A stretch of 64,000 nt of DNA from Bacteroidota bacterium (GTDB taxonomy: Bacteria > Bacteroidota > Ignavibacteria > Kryptoniales > JAKASW01). Below the pieces are notes generated by a model. It was not told the DNA's origin and searched no databases. It saw only the letters and a list, made by a program, of their open reading frames with translations. How positions within the stretch are numbered: the first letter of the stretch is position 1; every line of letters starts with the position of its first letter. The stretch is from contig JAJZNW010000089.1 in assembly GCA_021811615.1 (NCBI GenBank), forward strand, positions 46,441 to 110,440, given 5' to 3'. Positions 13,934 through 56,131 of this stretch are shown here, one piece after another. The translations under genes were made by a program, and so were the position numbers.

Positions 13934-13960
13934 ATGAGGCCGTCCAACGGACGGCCTCAT
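13934..13960 (-). terminator. Terminator downstream of first nine-heme cytochrome
   Basis: ATGAGGCCGTCC-gtt-GGACGGCCTCAT followed on the minus strand by TTGTTTT. Confidence 0.8.
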
Positions 13961-13983: not shown

Positions 13984-16104
13984 TTACTTAAGCAACATCA
14001 TTTTCATCGTTCTTATGTAGCTCGGCGAAGTCAACTTGTAGAAGTAGACACCGCTTGCCACTTCGGTACCCGCTTGATTCTCTCCGTTCCAGGTAACCTG
14101 GTATGTTCCCGGAGTATAGTTGCCGCTGGCCAGTACCTTGATGAGCTGACCGATGGAATTGTACACCGAGACGTTGACGACGCCTGTCCTCGGAATTGAG
14201 AAATTAATGGTCGTCGTCGGGTTGAACGGATTCGGATAGTTCTGTTCCAGCGCGTAGGTAGTAGGAACCTTCTGGGTTACCACTTTGACGCCTGTGTAAA
14301 CGCCGAGCGCCCTCGTCAGAAGAGCGAACGTATACTTTGCGTTGTGGACTCCGTAGCTTCCGTCCTTGGACACGAGCAGGTAATCCCAGTACGCTCCAAG
14401 CTGGTCTTTCGTGAGCTTCTTTGCACCAAATGCGCTGATCGTTCCATTGAACAACGAATCGCCCGTCGCTGTCGACTGGATGGCAGTGGCAAGCTTCGCG
14501 AGAAGCGCCTTAACCTCAGTCTGCACGCCGGGGATCGGTCCGCCGTTCGCGATGCCGGCATAATCGTAAGGAGCCGGGATCTGGTTGAAGTTCGTGATCG
14601 GACCGTGGCAGGACTGGCAAGCCGTCGTATTGTCGGTGGTATCTCCCGAAGCATCGGGCCCGCTCATCTTCCAGGTATGACCACCCAGAGTCATCGCGGC
14701 GTTCGCATCGACGGTATCGGAAGCCATATGGCATGTCACGCAAGCGTCGGTAAGCTGAGTATGTGTCGCAAGTCCCGTGATTGAGCTGTCCCCGAAATCA
14801 TAACCGTTCTGGCCCCAGAACAGGTCGGTCTGAGGTCCTTCGTGGGGCCCAAAGTAAGCTTTGTACCCGGCAGCGATGGCAGCATCGACGGCGGTGCGTG
14901 CACGGTGGCAGTTCATGCAAAGCTGACCTGCTCCACCGCCAGGAATCACAAAACCATTCGTTAGTGGCGGTGCCGAATACTTTCTCAGCTGAAATGGATT
15001 TGTTGCATCGTGGGGATTGTGGCATCCTGCGCAGGTCAAGGGAATGCCGCCGTAGGTGGTCTGTGTCAGTTGACCGTTTATGCCATAATCCGTGAACCCG
15101 GCTCCGTTATGGCACTGCGCGCAGGGAGCGCTGTTGACATGCCCGCCTTCCATTGCCTGGATGGCGATCATACCGCTGTCGTGCGGGCTGCTCGTCCATT
15201 CTCTTCCTATAGCATGGTGCGGCGGCTCGTCATGGCACTGCATGCAAACAGATGCGCTCAACGAGACGGATATCTTTGATGCATCTCCCCAGTGCTCACT
15301 TCCCGGTCCGTGGCAGCTCTCGCACCCGATCGTACCGAGCTGTGCAAGCTGCGCCGACGTGTGGTAAAGATGCGCAAAGTTGGAATCGACCAGCGTATCC
15401 GGGAAGCTCCAGCCGACTTTGTTCGCGACAGCAGCGAAGTTTCCGTTTGCAGCCGTCGGGTTATATCCTGTAGTGTGGCACTGTATGCAATGGCTTGCGT
15501 ATGCCTGGCCTTCAGGATTGTGACCATTGATGCTGAGTTTGAAAAATGAAGCGTGTTCAGTGTTCATCCAGTGCGAATAGTCAGCCGTCGGATCCAGCCC
15601 AAGACCTGTCAACGCGCCCTGGTGACAAGTCCCGCATTGCGGTGTCGTCGCAGTCGCGCTGTCGTAAGTCACGATACCCATTGACCCGACTCCGACATAG
15701 TTCGCGGATGTAAGAATTGTGGACGCCGTCGAAGTTGCGCCGCCCGACTCGGTTATTGTTGCATTGACTGTGTATTCACCCGTAGTATCCAATGTCATGG
15801 TCGTGAATGCCATCTGGCTATCCACCTGGGCCGTACCGCCGGGGGGATCTATCACCGACCACTTAACAGACTGGATTGTGCCTCCTGTAGAATCGATCGC
15901 CTGAAGATAAACAATAGTTTTCTCTCCGACGGTGCTGAGACCCGTCGAAGGGTACATCGAACTTCCTTTGGAACCGTACTGCTGATCAAGTGTGTAGGGG
16001 GTCATCCCGACTATCTTGATGCCAGCCTTCGGTGTCGTCTGCGAGAAAGCTAATCCAGCTGCGAGGAATACAAACACAAACATGGTAAAGATTCGTTTCC
16101 TCAT
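13984..16104 (-). CDS. Secreted multiheme (nine CXXCH) cytochrome c with T9SS type A sorting domain
   Basis: signal peptide; CGTCH, CIQCH, CESCH, CMQCH, CAQCH, CAGCH, CMNCH, CVTCH, CQSCH; C-terminal YPNPFNPTTTINFSIP...SGVYFYKLTSPSYIRTMKMMLLK. Confidence 0.9.
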   Translation of the reverse strand: MRKRIFTMFVFVFLAAGLAFSQTTPKAGIKIVGMTPYTLDQQYGSKGSSMYPSTGLSTVGEKTIVYLQAIDSTGGTIQSVKWSVIDPPGGTAQVDSQMAFTTMTLDTTGEYTVNATITESGGATSTASTILTSANYVGVGSMGIVTYDSATATTPQCGTCHQGALTGLGLDPTADYSHWMNTEHASFFKLSINGHNPEGQAYASHCIQCHTTGYNPTAANGNFAAVANKVGWSFPDTLVDSNFAHLYHTSAQLAQLGTIGCESCHGPGSEHWGDASKISVSLSASVCMQCHDEPPHHAIGREWTSSPHDSGMIAIQAMEGGHVNSAPCAQCHNGAGFTDYGINGQLTQTTYGGIPLTCAGCHNPHDATNPFQLRKYSAPPLTNGFVIPGGGAGQLCMNCHRARTAVDAAIAAGYKAYFGPHEGPQTDLFWGQNGYDFGDSSITGLATHTQLTDACVTCHMASDTVDANAAMTLGGHTWKMSGPDASGDTTDNTTACQSCHGPITNFNQIPAPYDYAGIANGGPIPGVQTEVKALLAKLATAIQSTATGDSLFNGTISAFGAKKLTKDQLGAYWDYLLVSKDGSYGVHNAKYTFALLTRALGVYTGVKVVTQKVPTTYALEQNYPNPFNPTTTINFSIPRTGVVNVSVYNSIGQLIKVLASGNYTPGTYQVTWNGENQAGTEVASGVYFYKLTSPSYIRTMKMMLLK

Positions 16105-16331
16105 AGCTATTACTCCTTTTCTAGTGCTTTTGGCAATAATTAGGAATCTCTTGATATTTTACACGGGTATAATTGCAATTAGAATGCCAATCAAAGACAC
16201 ACGTTCCACGCGAATTCCGGCGGGATTTAGAGTCTGCTAATAAGATTATGTCTACATGAACATGAAGGGGGCAATAAAATTGCCTTATTCATGGGCATTT
16301 TGGGACAGTGTATCCAATGTGGGGAGAGAAG

Positions 16332-16362
16332 GGAGGCCGCCACTCTGACAGTGACGGCCTCG
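16332..16362 (-). terminator. Hairpin/terminator downstream of second nine-heme cytochrome
   Basis: GAGGCCGtCACT-gtcag-AGTGgCGGCCTC on the minus strand. Confidence 0.55.
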
Positions 16363-16377
16363 TAACTTTACAACCTC

Positions 16378-18411
16378 TTACTTCATTAACAACATCTTGC
16401 GGCTCTGACTGAAATCTTTCGAAGTCAGCTTATAGAAATAAACACCGCTCGAGACGGAGGAGCCTGAAGCGTTCCTTCCATCCCAGGTCACCTTGTAGGC
16501 GCCCGCGCTGAAATGATTGTCAACCAGCGTCTTCACAAGCTGACCGATTGAATTGTAAATCATTATCCTCACGTTCTCGGACTTCGGCAGAGAGAAACTG
16601 ATGGTAGTTGTCGGGTTGAACGGGTTCGGATAATTCTGGTTGAGCGTAAATGCAGTCGGTACCTTGTTAGTAATCACTTCGACACCAGTCAGTGTGCCGA
16701 GCGCTCTCGTGAGTATACCGAACGTATATTTCGCATTGTGAACTCCGTAGCTCCCGTCGTTGACGACGTAGTAGTAATCATACACCGCCTTCAGGTAGTT
16801 CGGATTCCCCGCGATTGCGGCTGAGTCGGTGCTGACCGCCCCCGTCGTATCTTTCGGAAGGATCGCCGCGAGCTTGGTGAGTAAGCCCTTCACCTCGGTC
16901 TGTACGCCCTCGACCTTGCCGTTCCCATCGTAGTCCTCAGGCGCCTTTATGTCGTCGAAGCTCGACATTGGTCCATGACAGCTCTCGCAGACGGTTACGT
17001 TATCGGTCATCTTGCCGGTGCTGTCGGGCCCACTCATCTTCCATGTGTGACTGCCGAGGAGATAGGCGACGTTGCCGCTTGCCGCAGACATGTGGCAGGT
17101 AACGCAGGCGTCCGTCAGCTGCGTGTGAGTCGTTACTCCGGTTATGCTCTTGTCTCCGAACTGCACAGCGTTCTGGCCGTAGAACATGTCTGTCTGCGTG
17201 CCATAGTGCGGGCTGTAATGACTCGCCCATTTCTTTGTATAGGTGTCCGCAGTTCTTCTCGACTTGTGGCAGTTCATGCAGAGACCGCCCGTCCCCGCAT
17301 CCGGAATGGCAAAGCCGTTCATCAGAGTATCGGCCGTAACCTTCCTCAACTGATGCGCATTCGTTTCGGAATGGGGATCATGGCACGATGCGCAGCCGAT
17401 CGGCATTACAGACTGGGTACCGGATATCTTCTGGCCTGTAGCATAGAGATAGAAACCCGTACCGTTGTGGCACTTCGCGCACGACGCGCCGTTTACTCCG
17501 GCATCTTCTTCCTGGACGGCGTTCATCCCATGCCCACTGATAGCATACTCCCTGACGATGGAGTGATGCGTAGGAGCGTCATGACACTGAGCGCAGACTT
17601 TAACGTCGAGCGACTTGCTGATCGCCTTCGGATCGCCGTTATGTTCGCTTCCCGGGCCGTGGCAGTTTTCACAGCCGATGGTCGCCAGCTGGGCGAGCTG
17701 ATGGGATGTGTTGTAAAGGTGTGTGAAGTTGGTATCGACGAAAGTCGACGGGAACACCCAGCCGGACGCAGCCGCCGCGTCGTCGAAGCCGCCGTTCGAT
17801 GCGTTCTTGTCATACCCGGTTGTGTGGCAGCCGATGCAGCTCGCGCTGTAATGCGTCTGCCTCGGGTCTGTCCCGTTGATCGCCCCCTGGAATATGGTGG
17901 CATGCGGAGTGTTTACCCACTCCTGTACCATTGGAAGATGGCACAGTCCGCATTTGGGATCTTGCAGACTGCCGGGGCTTCCTCCTCCCATCAAACCGAC
18001 TCCCTCGTAGACCGCGGATGTGATCGTATCGGTCACCGAAGCCGTACCGCCCGACGTTCCCAGCGTAAGCTTGATTATGTATTGACCGGTCGTATCGGGG
18101 CGCATCGTTGTAAAGACTCTGTCGCTGCTGTCTATGACAGTAGCGGAGCCGGATGGTTTGCTTAAGATTTCCCACGTGACGGAAGTTATTGCCCCGCTGC
18201 CGAGGTTCTCCGCGTTCAAATAAACAATCGAACCCTTGCCTACCGTATTCAGGCCTGATGTGGTTGTCCTTGTACCCTGTGATCCATAGTGCTGCGCAAG
18301 CTCATATTGTGACATGCCCATTATTTCAATCTTTGGGCTGGGGGTCTGTGACAACGCAACGCCAGCGAACATCAGACAGGCCATGGTGCAATAGGTAAAT
18401 GCTTTACCCAT
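16378..18411 (-). CDS. Secreted multiheme (nine CXXCH) cytochrome c with T9SS type A sorting domain; paralog of the neighbouring gene
   Basis: CGLCH, CIGCH, CENCH, CAQCH, CAKCH, CASCH, CMNCH, CVTCH, CESCH; C-terminal YPNPFNPTTTISFSLP...SGVYFYKLTSKDFSQSRKMLLMK; same domain order as 13984..16104. Confidence 0.9.
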   Translation of the reverse strand: MGKAFTYCTMACLMFAGVALSQTPSPKIEIMGMSQYELAQHYGSQGTRTTTSGLNTVGKGSIVYLNAENLGSGAITSVTWEILSKPSGSATVIDSSDRVFTTMRPDTTGQYIIKLTLGTSGGTASVTDTITSAVYEGVGLMGGGSPGSLQDPKCGLCHLPMVQEWVNTPHATIFQGAINGTDPRQTHYSASCIGCHTTGYDKNASNGGFDDAAAASGWVFPSTFVDTNFTHLYNTSHQLAQLATIGCENCHGPGSEHNGDPKAISKSLDVKVCAQCHDAPTHHSIVREYAISGHGMNAVQEEDAGVNGASCAKCHNGTGFYLYATGQKISGTQSVMPIGCASCHDPHSETNAHQLRKVTADTLMNGFAIPDAGTGGLCMNCHKSRRTADTYTKKWASHYSPHYGTQTDMFYGQNAVQFGDKSITGVTTHTQLTDACVTCHMSAASGNVAYLLGSHTWKMSGPDSTGKMTDNVTVCESCHGPMSSFDDIKAPEDYDGNGKVEGVQTEVKGLLTKLAAILPKDTTGAVSTDSAAIAGNPNYLKAVYDYYYVVNDGSYGVHNAKYTFGILTRALGTLTGVEVITNKVPTAFTLNQNYPNPFNPTTTISFSLPKSENVRIMIYNSIGQLVKTLVDNHFSAGAYKVTWDGRNASGSSVSSGVYFYKLTSKDFSQSRKMLLMK

Positions 18412-23073: not shown

Positions 23074-23583
23074 GGTTCTATAATAATTGCATGCCTTCGG
23101 CATTACGCTCCGGGCGGCTCAAAGAAGATACATGGGCGGAAGTCCGAAGGACTGACATTATTGTAGAATACCAAAACATACAGGCAACAGAACCCCGATA
23201 GGGGTGACATTTTGCAAAGCTGCTCTTACGATGAAAACATGAATCGATGGAAATGAAGGTTCTATGATAATTGCATGCCTTCGGCATTACGCTCCAGGCG
23301 GCTCAAAGAAGATACATGGGCAGAAGTCCGAAGGACTGACATTATTGTAGAATACCAAAACATACAGGCAACCGAACCCCGATAGGGGTGACATTTTGCA
23401 AAGCTGCTCTTACGATGAAAACATGAATCGATGGAAATGAAGGTTCTATAATAATTGCATGCCTTCGGCATTACGCTCCGGGCGGCTCAAAGAAGATACA
23501 TGGGCAGAAGTCCGAAGGACTGACATTATTGTAGAATACCAAAAGATACAGGCAACAGAACCCCGATAGGGGTGACATTTTGC
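23074..23583. repeat. Direct-repeat array, about 2.8 copies of a 184-bp unit
   Basis: copies begin at 23074, 23258 and 23442 (GGTTCTATrATAATTGCATGCCTTCGGCATTACGCTCC...), near identical; third copy truncated after GACATTTTGC. Confidence 0.95.
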
Positions 23584-25130: not shown

Positions 25131-25763
25131 TCATATTTCTTCGTCGATCGGTTCGAAGGTTTTCAGATGCCGGTGGAACTCTCTGAATCGATCCGAACCA
25201 CCGAATAGTTCCAACGTCTCGCTGCTTGCGAACATGGGCTTCTTCCCGGAAGAAAGCGCATTGTACGAAGAATACTCCCAATCATCCATCGAATCTACAA
25301 ATCCATGATGAACCGGGTTATTATGGACATAAACTATCAGGTTCAGCAGGTATTCGTTTGATGTAACCTTCTTCCTTTTGAAGTTGCTGATAAACAATCC
25401 GCCGCGTCTGTGATAGACCTTGTTGAAAGCCTGGGCGTAGGAATTGAAGAGGTTCGAGAATTGCTGGCTGTTAAGACGGCATAACCTTTCGAACGACAGG
25501 AACCCCCGAAAAGATTGAAGTCTTTTCCTCTTCGAATAAAAGGCCCACAGTTCCGCCTCCGGTTTCATTCGGATGACAAAATGAAAATGGTTCGGCATCA
25601 GGCAATAAGCTAAAGTATTTGCGATGTCCGAAATGTGCGCCGCGTACAATCGCAGGAAGAAATGGTAATTCTTATCTTCACGAAAGATGTTGTCGCTTCC
25701 GTTAGCATGGTTGAAGACATGGTAAAATTCTTCCGGCTCCAGAGGCAGCTGCGGATTCGCCAT
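25131..25763 (-). CDS. REP-associated tyrosine transposase (RAYT, Y1/IS200-like superfamily)
   Basis: FYHVFNHANGSDNIFRE, CLMPNHFHFVIR (HUH motif), FNSYAQAFNKVYHRRGGLFISNFKRKKV (catalytic Tyr helix), YVHNNPVHHGF. Confidence 0.9.
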   Translation of the reverse strand: MANPQLPLEPEEFYHVFNHANGSDNIFREDKNYHFFLRLYAAHISDIANTLAYCLMPNHFHFVIRMKPEAELWAFYSKRKRLQSFRGFLSFERLCRLNSQQFSNLFNSYAQAFNKVYHRRGGLFISNFKRKKVTSNEYLLNLIVYVHNNPVHHGFVDSMDDWEYSSYNALSSGKKPMFASSETLELFGGSDRFREFHRHLKTFEPIDEEI

Positions 25764-50675: not shown

Positions 50676-52286
50676 ATGAAGAAGAATAAAATTGTGATTA
50701 CAGCTTTTATCGCACTGGCGGTTCTGCATGTACGAACGGCAACGGCACAGCAGCTTGTCAAGCTGACCCCGATATTAGAAGTCGAGGACACGATTGCTGG
50801 CGCGCAGCTTGGGGCGTATGTGAAAGGGGTCGGAGACCTGAACCACGACGGCTACGCCGATGTAGCGGTGAGCGCGCCGGGTCTCTTCAAAACTTATATC
50901 TACTACGGCGGCAAGACTATGAGCAAGACGCCTTCGCTCACGTTAAAGGGAGGCGGACATATAGTATCGGGGGACTTCAGAGGAAACGGCTGGACAGATC
51001 TCGCGATCGAGATACCTTTTCACGACACCGTACTCGTCTATTTCAACGGCCCGAATGGTCTCGACACGATACCGGACTTAGTACTCACCCAGCCGTCCGA
51101 TTACTTCGGGTATGTCATGACAGCGGGTGACTTCTACGGGAACGGATATACAGATCTTGCAATCGGGACAATGGATGAAAACCAGTTCCAGAACAAAGCG
51201 CTGTATCAGAGGGGACGGATATTCATATATGCGGGCGGGCCATTCATGAGCGCAACCCCTGTTGATACGGTTATCGGTGACACAAACAGTGCAGCCCTCG
51301 GTACAGCTCTCGCCACTGGTGATGTGTACGGAAATGGGAAAGACGAGCTTGTTGCCTTGGGATTCAACGAATCTTGCGGCAACTACCCTTGCTCATACAC
51401 GTATCTATCCGTCTACACTAATAACGAAGGTTACAATCTTAAAAGGACTCTTTATATAGACTCCCGTAATGTGCCTGGGGGATTTGGTCCACCTGACTCA
51501 CCTGACGGCAGCGTCGCCTGCTTCGATGCCGACGGTGACGGTATACCAGACATACTGGTGAGCGGGATATGCATATTCAAAGGGGGAGCAAAGATAGACA
51601 CGCTCCCCACTTATCGTGTAGGTCCGCCGAGAGGAGACACGACGGACTATGGCGCGTATCCGTGGGTTGCAGGAGGCGGCGATTACAACGGAGACGGAAT
51701 ACCTGACATACTCCTCGCGTCGGAGCGCGGTGGAGGTCTCGGCATGACGAGCGGAGTCTTCGTGATGGTCGACGGGATAGACGATCCCGGACAGTTCGCA
51801 GGGTACAGGGTGTACGCCCAAATGAATCCGACAGTTGACCTTTCCGGCAACCCTGAGAACGCCGGCGATGTAAACGGAGGAGGAGTAGACGACATTATCG
51901 TGGGCAATGGTGGATGGTTTCCATTCGTCGACTACGGTTTCTTCGGCATCTACTCGGGCGACACCGCGATGAAGGCTCAGGACAACGTGCCGCCTATTCT
52001 GCCGAAGGAGATGAAGCTTGAACAGAACTATCCCAACCCGTTCAATCCCACGACAACGATCAGCTATCAGCTGTCAGCGGCAAGCCATGTCAGCCTCAAG
52101 ATTTACGACACACTCGGAAGGGAGGTGATTACTTTAGTGAACGACGAGGAAGAATCTCCCGGAACTTACACAGTCCACTGGAACGGAACGAACCGTGAAG
52201 GTGAACGCGTAAGTTCCGGAGTCTATTTCTACCAGTTAACGACAGACGACGGTACACAGACCAAAAAGGCTGTGTTCCTGAAGTGA
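50676..52286 (+). CDS. FG-GAP/integrin-alpha-like repeat protein with T9SS type A sorting domain
   Basis: VGDLNHDGYADVAVSAPG, GDFYGNGYTDLAIGT, GGGDYNGDGIPDILLAS; C-terminal YPNPFNPTTTISYQLS...SGVYFYQLTTDDGTQTKKAVFLK. Confidence 0.9.
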   Translation: MKKNKIVITAFIALAVLHVRTATAQQLVKLTPILEVEDTIAGAQLGAYVKGVGDLNHDGYADVAVSAPGLFKTYIYYGGKTMSKTPSLTLKGGGHIVSGDFRGNGWTDLAIEIPFHDTVLVYFNGPNGLDTIPDLVLTQPSDYFGYVMTAGDFYGNGYTDLAIGTMDENQFQNKALYQRGRIFIYAGGPFMSATPVDTVIGDTNSAALGTALATGDVYGNGKDELVALGFNESCGNYPCSYTYLSVYTNNEGYNLKRTLYIDSRNVPGGFGPPDSPDGSVACFDADGDGIPDILVSGICIFKGGAKIDTLPTYRVGPPRGDTTDYGAYPWVAGGGDYNGDGIPDILLASERGGGLGMTSGVFVMVDGIDDPGQFAGYRVYAQMNPTVDLSGNPENAGDVNGGGVDDIIVGNGGWFPFVDYGFFGIYSGDTAMKAQDNVPPILPKEMKLEQNYPNPFNPTTTISYQLSAASHVSLKIYDTLGREVITLVNDEEESPGTYTVHWNGTNREGERVSSGVYFYQLTTDDGTQTKKAVFLK

Positions 52287-52311: not shown

Positions 52312-55300
52312 ATGAAGAAGCTATTGTTTATTTCTCTCGTTCTGCTCGGCGCAAATGCCTTTGCCCAGCAGTTCCCGATCAGTGCGAATAACATGTTCTC
52401 GTCATCGAGCCAGTCGTTCGAGCAGACGGAGATCAGCACGACGCCCGGCATGATGCAGAGCGCGGGTTTCAACTGGGGGATAGCCATTACGACCGATCCG
52501 TCTGAAATCGGAAACCTCCTCAATGCGGCGGCTCAGCATAACATAAGCCTGATCCTCGAGGGCCCGATCCCGGATTACGGCTGGGCGGAAAGATTTTATC
52601 TAGAAGGAGATAATACCTATTTCGATATAGTGAATGGGGCTCATTCGACACTTTCATCCGATCAGAATTCGGATCAGCCACACAGTGATCCATACTACGA
52701 CCTAAAGCCTTTGGAGGCCACTGTTGCGAACGCTTACATGGTCGAGGGAGCGACGCACGACCCGGTCGATCCGTGGGTTGACAGCGCGTCGTACCAGGCA
52801 TATTTCAGATTGAAAATCCAGAAGCCATCGAACCCGCCGCCTCCCACCACGCCTGTCGCGAGCATAGAAGTATGGGACACTTACAACACACCCAACACGT
52901 TGATCACCAGCGAGACGGTGACGTACCAGCAGTTCACATCGAGCAACGTTTACTACACCTTCGAGCTGGGTTTCATACCTCCTTCTCATACGTACACAAC
53001 CACATCCAGCGGAGGCGTCACAGTGAGCGAGAGTCCGAACCGGTTCGTTTCCGAAAGCGTATCGACGAGCTCGCAGCAGTACTTCCCTGACGGAGTTGAT
53101 GTCCGCGTGTACTGGTACGGAACAGCTCCTTTGTGGCTCGACGACATCCGAGTCGAGGGCACAGACGGAAAGACGGACTTCTCCACACCAGCTCTTTTTT
53201 CGGGCCAGTACAACTCTCAAATAAAGAGCGATGCACAGCAGTATGACTCTTACGCAGCACTTGGAAGGTATTACTTAAAAGACGAGCCATACATATCTCA
53301 ATATTTGGCTTATGATTATCTGAACACGGTTCTGGATTCCGTTCAAGCTGACCATTCAAACGGCAAGGGGCTTGGCTACGCACAGAAAGATGAAGGAGAT
53401 CACTCCCATTACGAAACCTGGGTAGGCGACACGTACAAACGATTCCTTACCGAGGCGAAGCCATACGAGCTGGCAGCGGAAGTGAACAGATTCCTGCAGG
53501 GAGACCAGCAGCCATATACGGTCGGGTACACATCTATGGCCTAGGGGGAACTTCAGACTGAAATGATGCGGTTCGACTCGGCCGAGGCCGACTGCTACCT
53601 CTCCTCGTCAGGGACCTGGCGCGCGCACATAAACTCGAGCAGCTGGACAGGGACGACGAGAGAGCCGCATTTAGTGGAAGTTTCCGCGCAGGTGTGGTGC
53701 GCGCTGGCTCACGGGGCGAACGGCATAGACTATTACCAGTACCTCACCGACCCAGGTGACAGCTGCATCGGACTCGTCGATCCGAATTTGAACGAGATCA
53801 CCTCGAGCTCACAGTATGAACAGGGAGCGCTCGGATATTCATACGATGAAAACAAGTGGAACGGAATCGCGGCGCTGAACCAGACTATCGCCGACACGAT
53901 AGCTCCCGTCCTTACGCAGCTCAAGTGGGACGCCGCATACAGCATCAACGAAGGTCAGCCCACAAGCGGTGTCATACATTCCATTACTACCGGCGATCCT
54001 TCCGATTCGACTTATGTGGAATTAGGCCTTTTCAACGACGCGTCCGGGAACAACTACTTCATGCTTGTCAACAGGAGGACCGATTCCACGCAGACCAGAG
54101 CCGTCACTGTCAACTTCTCGCTTCCGAGCGGGAACTGGGCGGTTTCGGATGTTTCCTCGCACGATATGTGGATTGTTGGAAGTAGCGGGAGTTTCACCGA
54201 CGAGATCGCTGCAGGAGAGGGGAAACTCTACAAGGTGGTTCCTGCCACTTTCGGATCGACGACTTTCGCAGGCAACGTTACCGTGGAAACTACCGGAACG
54301 ATGACCGTGAACCCCGGCGCGACGTTAACATTCGGGAGCGGCCTGTCCATAATCGTTAACGGCAGTCTGAGCGCCGTGGGGAGTTCATCTCAGCCTATCG
54401 TTTTCACCGCTTCATCGGGTAACTGGAATGGGATTACATTTGCCGGCTCCAGTACAGGCAATCTGCAAGACTGCACGATCTCCTACGCAAGTTCACCGGT
54501 AATCATCGATACAGCCAACGTCACGATTAACGGCTGCACGATAAACAACTCATCCTTCTACGGCGGAAATAGCAATACCGCGGCAGCCATACAGGTCTGG
54601 GATTCAAACCCCACGATCGAGAACACCGCCATCGACGGCGAATCCGATTCATGGAATGGCGTCAGGTTCGGGGGCGGCAGCACGGGAACCATGACAGGCT
54701 GCACCGTCCAGAACTTGGGCGCTGGAGACGGCATCGTTATTCAAGGCGGATCGAGCCCGTCTATACTCTCCTCCAGAATAACCGGGAATTACTACTACGG
54801 CATAATCGCCAACACCGACGGCACCGGCGACCCGGTGATAGAGTCGGACTACATCGACTCAAACGGTATCGTCGGCGGGAGCAAACATTACCAGGGAATA
54901 TATTTCCTGAATTCGAGCGGCCACGTCAACCTCGACACTGTCAGCAACAGCAACTTCGGAATTTACTGCTACGATTACTGTACCGCATCCTCAGGACAAG
55001 CTGGAGAAAACATCATAATAGACAACAACTACGGCATCGGGGCATTCGATTACAGCTCGCCGGTTTTCGGGCATGGGATAGGCAACCCGCCTGTCACCTA
55101 CGACGGGACATGTAACCAGATATACAACAATGCCACGGATAACTTGTACGCCGTTAATAACAGTTTCATAGAGGCCGAGTATAACTGGTGGGGCGCATAT
55201 CCTCCCAGCGGCGGTTTCTATGCCGACGGAACTTCATCACTCGATTACACGAACGCGCTTACTTCACCCGGCGCCTGTCCAACCAGTGGATCGCCCACAG

Positions 55301-56131
55301 TTGCTACGAACACCGCTATGACTAACACGGCGGCAACACCTGTCCAGATCGGTCTGTGGTACGAAAATGCCGGCTATTGGAAGAAGGCTGCCGCCGCATA
55401 TGAAGGCATTCTGAAAGACACTTCATCCATGAGTGAGAAGCGCTACGCACTTGAACGGCTTTACCATGTGTTCCAGGCATCGAAGGATACGACTATGATC
55501 GGAGTATTCCAGACTCTCGCTGACTCCGCAAGTCCGATAAGCTCAATGGCGCAGGAAATCCTTGCGAGCGCTTACATCGGCGCCGGAAGATTCTCCGATG
55601 CCGAGAACCTGGCGAACGAACTGATAGCGCAACATCCCGGTACGGAAATCGCAAAGGATCAGCTGATCCTCCTTGCTTCCCTCGACCAGTACAACCAATC
55701 ATACAGAACTGCATCATCGGCAGTACTGTCGGAGTTGAAGAGTGAAGTTGCCAGCACAACCGATGCGGGGCTCATACCCGCGCTTACATTGACCGCCACG
55801 TCATCATCGTCCCAGGCATCCCAAAGTGAGCAACTCACTGTCGGAATGGACACGACCCGAGCGGTTCCGCTCAAGTTCACATTGGGTAATTATCCAAATC
55901 CATTCAATCCGACAACAGTTATCAAGTATGAGATGCCAAAGGAGACTCACGTTAGGATAACCGTTTACGACGTCCTGGGCCGCAAGGTAGAAACTCTCAT
56001 CGACGGCAACGAAACGGCCGGAATCCACGAAGTTACGTTCGACGGATCACGTCTTGCCAGCGGAGTGTACTTCTAACAGACTTACGACACCAACTTACTC
56101 GAAAGTGATGAAGATGTTGATGCTGAAATGA
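52312..56131 (+). pseudogene. Disrupted T9SS cargo (N-terminal region, right-handed parallel beta-helix repeats, sorting domain) with in-frame TAG, TAA and a +1 frameshift
   Basis: ORFs 52312..53544 and 53563..56076 share one frame and are separated only by TAG 53542-53544; sorting domain GVYF[TAA]QTYDTN|YSKVMKMLMLK* resumes in +1 frame and ends at TGA 56129-56131. Confidence 0.85.

Follow-up and report, generated by a model that had tools for sequence, protein, structure and literature searches.

The window analysed here is a stretch of 64,000 nucleotides from a genome of a Bacteroidota bacterium of the class Ignavibacteria (NCBI GenBank assembly GCA_021811615.1, contig JAJZNW010000089.1, positions 46,441 to 110,440). 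It contains two adjacent genes, here named cytA and cytB, whose products are probably nonaheme terminal reductases of the OcwA type, delivered to the cell surface by the type IX secretion system (T9SS) and acting downstream of a porin-cytochrome conduit. We give this reading a probability of roughly 0.7. The observations behind it are the anatomy of the two proteins, their sorting tag, the secretion and maturation machinery of the genome, the homology to OcwA with its candidate heme ligands, and the co-occurrence and neighbourhood of the family with conduit genes. Both open reading frames lie on the minus strand, at the coordinates given in an earlier sequence-only reading of this DNA, and their parts are the following.

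13984..16104, minus strand: cytA open reading frame, encoding CytA (706 aa)
16042..16104, minus strand: signal peptide of CytA (residues 1-21), cleavage expected before Gln22
14605..15636, minus strand: predicted nine-heme OcwA-type core of CytA (nine CXXCH, residues 157-500)
13984..14238, minus strand: T9SS type A C-terminal sorting domain of CytA (residues 623-706; YPNPFNPTTT ... GVYFYKL ... K; TIGR04183)
16378..18411, minus strand: cytB open reading frame, encoding CytB (677 aa), a paralog of CytA with the same layout
18349..18411, minus strand: signal peptide of CytB, cleavage expected before Gln22
16975..17952, minus strand: predicted nine-heme OcwA-type core of CytB (residues 154-479)
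16378..16632, minus strand: T9SS type A C-terminal sorting domain of CytB (residues 594-677; TIGR04183)

CytA and CytB share 51 % identity over 702 positions. In CytA a PKD/Ig-like part (residues ~28-136) precedes the heme core, and a C-terminal helical part (~515-605) lies between the core and the C-terminal sorting domain (CTD). Exactly nine CXXCH motifs were counted in each protein, in agreement with the sequence-only reading. Shuffled proteins contained a mean of 0.02 CXXCH and none of 2000 shuffles reached nine, which rules out chance as the source of the motifs. All 18 cysteines of CytA (18/18) belong to CXXCH motifs; CytB has two others, C8 and C12, both within its signal peptide, and in the mature forms of both proteins every cysteine is part of a CXXCH. 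Lipoprotein attachment of CytB via Cys8 or Cys12 was considered and rejected, as the ortholog at locus L015 lacks Cys12 and the hydrophobic stretch is not followed by a lipobox.

The signal peptides, read by eye from the sequence, are of the Sec type with Gln at position +1 in both proteins (LAFS/QTTP in CytA and VALS/QTPS in CytB), and the cleavage site expected for CytA also agrees with the Q-rule (PMC5837995). TIGR04183, the model of the T9SS type A sorting domain, scored 35.1 bits with CytA and 41.4 bits with CytB against a curated cut-off of 23, so that the sorting domains recognised earlier by eye are confirmed. The N-terminal Ig/PKD-like part is weakly matched: Pfam family PF22352 (K319L-like PKD) remained below its cut-off of 27 (16.2 and 14.5 bits), but a profile also matched 6nz0, a PKD structure of KIAA0319L (E 1.1e-4), which backs the PKD-like label.

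The heme core was compared with solved structures by means of a family profile built from 45 class members and run against the PDB. The profile was required, single-sequence phmmer searches giving weak matches alone. Its best solved relative was 6i5b (E 9e-29), which we take to be OcwA of Thermincola potens, followed by 6qvm (E 6e-22), presumably OmhA of Carboxydothermus ferrireducens; for both, length and heme number fit the published descriptions. NrfA and octaheme nitrite reductases came next, with E values of 1e-8 to 1e-11. The homology to OcwA reaches past the heme motifs, since the alignment takes in the C-terminal part with the GVHN histidine, and judged by this alignment the heme core of CytA and CytB is of the OcwA type, within the NrfA superfamily. 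OcwA is a nonaheme cell-surface terminal reductase with six bis-His hemes, a His/Met-ligated heme 9 and open hemes 2 and 5, each beneath a His-His pair (PMC6703420). Its grouping with nonahemes from Gram-negative bacteria is already known (PMC7829351).

Residue conservation was counted in 66 aligned class members and is given in CytA numbering. Histidines 184, 271, 308, 365, 476 and 587, all outside the heme motifs, were kept in 64-66 of the 66 sequences and aligned with histidines of OcwA, and they are candidate distal heme ligands. Met480, found in 53/66 members, has a plausible position for a candidate His/Met ligation of heme 9. A His-His pair after heme 4 (HH296-297 in CytA, THH in CytB, HH in 30/66 members) should, by its position in the profile alignment, be the equivalent of the OcwA heme 2 pocket. 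By strict motif count 57 of the 66 members have nine CXXCH, and no CXXCK motif was found.

The genome containing the window (4.49 Mb, 150 contigs, 84 % complete) encodes two full-length SprA proteins with scores of 1040 and 976 bits, above the cut-off, and, next to the C-terminal part of a PorU, a PorV-family protein (280 bits against a cut-off of 90). There is also a second pair of PorU/PorU2-like and PorV2-like proteins. The PorU-like proteins of this genome scored under their cut-offs, and ~40 places in the genome matched the CTD portion of the PorU model. The cytochrome maturation genes lie together on contig C19: homologs of CcmC and of CcmF/NrfE, and a weakly matching CcmB. Across the class, SprA was above its cut-off in 290/294 genomes. 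The two SprA of the genome itself, at loci L111 and L112 (contigs C69 and C80), are divergent, and with the PorU2/PorV2-like genes they possibly represent two T9SS translocons with separate cargo.

The sorting tag is constant within the family. TIGR04183 matched all 45 class members scanned (45/45), and in the fetched loci the CTD was found by motif in 43/43 members of the first set and 5/5 long homologs of the second set, 48/48 together. It was retained in all full-length members across 31-94 % identity. By the same motif none of the partner cytochromes (0/77) and none of the short homologs (0/15) in the fetched loci was tagged. With the machinery present, the tag in 45/45 members and SprA in 290/294 genomes, the routing of multiheme cytochromes through T9SS, which the sequence-only reading had put forward, is well supported.

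A match to the core was found in 196/294 class genomes, distributed over 106/152 genera, and a strong match to the family (E <= 1e-45) in 143 of the class genomes. In a phylum sample (n=396), a single genome not belonging to the class had a strong match. That protein (L138, genome G396) is 966 aa long and contains nine CXXCH, with extra domains between core and CTD. HGW-Ignavibacteriae-3, a named Ignavibacteriae metagenome-assembled genome (MAG), has two full-length members, while the closest named records are the MAGs Bacteroidetes bacterium DX1.bin11 (96 %) and SKS5.bin54 (81 %). Weak matches to the family were obtained from an acidobacterial genome and a Carboxydothermus genome. At L144:7155-8744 (genome G259) lies a CTD-tagged nine-heme protein of 529 aa that represents another type of multiheme cytochrome with a T9SS tag, and HGW-Ignavibacteriae-3 encodes a similar 8-heme protein of 496 aa (L019).

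Fe(III) reduction and porin-cytochrome (Pcc) systems have both been reported from Ignavibacteria (PMC6137239, PMC7399161). The genome of the window also has a conduit cluster of this type (L115, contig C101), with five gene products: an 18-heme/cytochrome b561 fusion, a 4-heme C554-like protein, a 492-aa beta-barrel, a 14-heme cytochrome and a lipoprotein with CxxxxCH/CXXCH motifs. In Ignavibacterium album the Pcc cluster is IALB_1837-1840, in which IALB_1838 is a 400-aa, 14-heme protein (Shi 2014, PMC4245776). The last four genes of L115 match IALB_1840-1837 in order and size, as judged from the published description and not from sequence comparison. The conduit porin was present in 185/294 class genomes and in 139 of the 143 in which the family match is strong; of the remaining four, three are 74-78 % complete. 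In some relatives the T9SS nonaheme gene directly adjoins the conduit cluster (L069, L070) or lies beside parts of it or related cytochrome genes (L067, L072, L076, L090), and at L144 the different CTD-tagged 9-heme protein heads an operon of C554, porin, 14-heme and lipoprotein genes. Because of the porin co-occurrence, the adjacency in relatives and the conduit cluster of the genome itself, CytA and CytB appear to be the conduit's outermost partner.

The conduit operon of seven genomes encodes a 378-410-aa protein with 5-6 hemes that is homologous to the later portion of the core. The five of these short homologs that were inspected (L125, L126, L127, L129, L139) carry a lipobox, after which comes a collagen-like GXX stretch. 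As such lipoprotein homologs sit within the conduit operon, one heme module appears to occur in two surface-type formats, one T9SS-tagged and one lipoprotein.

From these observations we infer secretion of the hemylated proteins, their heme loading, surface location, electron partner and acceptor. CytA and CytB would be exported by Sec to the periplasm, where the Ccm system would attach the hemes. The SprA/PorV T9SS, guided by the CTD, would then move the folded, hemylated cargo across the outer membrane, and the cytochromes would be held at the surface or released. Electrons would pass from the quinol pool to the b561/18-heme protein, through the porin conduit to CytA/CytB, which would hand them on to an external acceptor such as Fe(III) minerals or shuttles. 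It also seems fairly likely that throughout the class T9SS is the standard surface route for hemylated reductases of the OcwA type that complete the conduit, with the lipoprotein format used in some relatives.

Several points weigh against a conduit-linked terminal reductase. In the genus of the window housekeeping genes, not a conduit, flank the pair. The statistic for porin co-occurrence (Fisher p 4e-37) is uncorrected for shared ancestry. The heme-5 His-His pocket of OcwA is missing in CytA and CytB (GPHEGP and SPHYGT at the site) and heme 2 has been lost in 4/66 members; the chemistry may thus differ from that of OcwA. Since the heme 2 pair is present and the heme 5 pair absent, the aligned sequences indicate that CytA and CytB are homologs of OcwA and not full copies of its active-site set, and they probably have no more than one open site of the OcwA kind. 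AlphaFold2, applied to six sequences, predicted helices where nonahemes of the OcwA type have a C-terminal three-helix bundle, but with a mean predicted local distance difference test score (pLDDT) of 33.5.

Another possibility is that CytA and CytB are surface-exported enzymes of the NrfA/octaheme type for nitrite, hydroxylamine or other oxyanions, with mineral reduction secondary or absent. NrfA-type enzymes are usually periplasmic. The profile matches to NrfA and the octaheme nitrite reductases are in favour of such an enzyme, as are the HH pair near heme 2 kept in both proteins and the finding that OcwA itself reduces nitrite slowly and also hydroxylamine (PMC6703420). We nevertheless regard it as unlikely, as CXXCK and the heme 5 pocket are absent, heme 2 is dispensable in some members, and the tight co-occurrence with the conduit indicates an external acceptor beyond the outer membrane. 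The sequence-only reading had proposed that the T9SS cytochromes are an alternative to porin-cytochrome conduits; in that case they would carry electrons out themselves or act without a trans-outer-membrane conduit. The pair is indeed not beside a conduit in the genome of the window, but that genome has its own conduit, the porin accompanies nearly all strong matches and the genes adjoin in relatives; this proposal was therefore rejected and we consider it highly improbable.

We would give equally little credence to a hemylated core that, in spite of its CTD, is retained in the periplasm or lodged in the outer membrane and serves there to carry or store electrons. A folded cargo with attached hemes would be a demanding substrate, and no nonaheme T9SS cargo was demonstrated in the papers found. 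Against this stand the retention of the CTD in every full-length member, its absence from all periplasmic partner cytochromes, the surface location of OcwA and OmhA, the closest relatives with a solved structure, and the lipoprotein nature of the short homologs with their collagen-like spacer. The direction of electron flow is left free by the sequences, and such conduits can in principle run both ways, so that a surface cytochrome could feed the conduit from outside, with electrons from Fe(II) or from partner cells. Such uptake or cell-to-cell transfer is, however, hardly to be expected, given that OcwA and OmhA are reductases, Melioribacter has been reported to reduce Fe(III) and electrode biofilms of Ignavibacteria have been reported (PMC6137239, PMC7399161). 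OcwA-type terminal reductases at the outer end of the conduit thus remain the reading we prefer.

The genes flanking cytA and cytB, named by inspection, are pfk and methylglyoxal-synthase-like, rne-like and rnhB-like genes, and the pfk, rne and rnhB homologs recur in part elsewhere in the genus. The gene order of Pcc outer-membrane cytochromes, with the porin and a periplasmic multiheme cytochrome adjoining, was not found at the locus in the window. A hairpin follows each of the two genes:

13934..13960, minus strand: intrinsic-terminator-like hairpin with a 12-pair stem, 3' of cytA
16334..16361, minus strand: imperfect hairpin GAGGCCG...CGGCCTC, 3' of cytB, found by eye and missed by the scan

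Because of these hairpins and the intergenic gap, cytA and cytB are probably two separate transcription units. The tandem duplication, in which the sequence-only reading saw a possible functional diversification, was confirmed and is an old event in the genus: in the tree the CytA-type and CytB-type clades of the genus each had a support of 1.0, as did their joint clade, and the duplication is older than the divergence of the sampled species that hold both copies.

Elsewhere in the window, 23074-23583 contains a tandem array with a 184-bp unit (2.8 copies, 97 % matches), and 25131-25763 (minus strand) a 210-aa open reading frame that by inspection only resembles a REP-associated (Y1) transposase. 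The 536-aa protein encoded at 50676-52286 (plus strand) has repeated blocks of the D-G-D style and a full CTD, and is likely a T9SS cargo too. Two consecutive open reading frames of 410 and 837 aa lie at 52312-56076 (plus strand). The latter has YPNPFN and ends in ...LASGVYF, so its CTD seems shortened, and the two are possibly a single broken gene or an assembly error. At loci L117 and L119 (contigs C39 and C1) one operon occurs in two nearly identical copies; it encodes a 637-aa membrane protein with six CXXCH and a ferredoxin-like partner.

A T9SS in Ignavibacteriota has been suggested before (PMC11285876, PMC5837995), and Pcc systems in this group and the grouping of OcwA were likewise known. 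No paper treating T9SS and multiheme cytochromes jointly, and none on multiheme cargo of T9SS, was found in the literature searched, which excludes most subscription journals and all preprints. If the proposed role is correct, it is, within that literature, a new route by which a diderm brings multiheme terminal reductases to its surface, and T9SS would be shown to carry cargo with nine covalent hemes. It would tie the OcwA family, solved in monoderms, to the Pcc conduit of Ignavibacteria, for which the reported clusters account for the trans-membrane step and name no such surface partner. It would also aid the genome-based prediction of extracellular electron transfer in iron-rich settings.

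Among the known systems, MtrC and OmcA of Shewanella share with CytA and CytB a presumed surface role and a weak match (43 bits) of the Pfam MtrC/MtrF domain to the region of the heme motifs. MtrC and OmcA are lipoproteins with ten hemes. Membership of this group was rejected for the nine-heme CytA and CytB, which the OmcA/MtrC model TIGR03507 did not match, only 6/45 family members reaching that model. With T9SS type A cargo (Por_Secre_tail) the two proteins have in common the signal peptide and TIGR04183, and SprA, PorV and PorU-like proteins are encoded in the genome; the known cargo, however, consists of proteases, adhesins, glycosidases and similar proteins, and a multiheme cytochrome was not found among it in the papers searched. 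The Pcc system of I. album resembles that of the genome studied here in its C554-type protein, porin, ~400-aa 14-heme cytochrome and outer-membrane cytochrome with atypical motifs, whereas the published cluster is without a T9SS-tagged cytochrome, and CytA and CytB differ from its outer-membrane lipoprotein. OmhA (6qvm), matched by the profile with E 6e-22, is a surface cytochrome linked to the reduction of ferrihydrite (PMC7829351), but has 11 hemes, comes from a monoderm and has no CTD match. OcwA (6i5b) is the closest, with nine hemes, alignable heme motifs, six aligned histidines and a heme 2 HH pair that also occurs in CytA and CytB; it belongs to a monoderm and has neither a CTD nor a PKD-like match, whereas CytA and CytB must cross an outer membrane.

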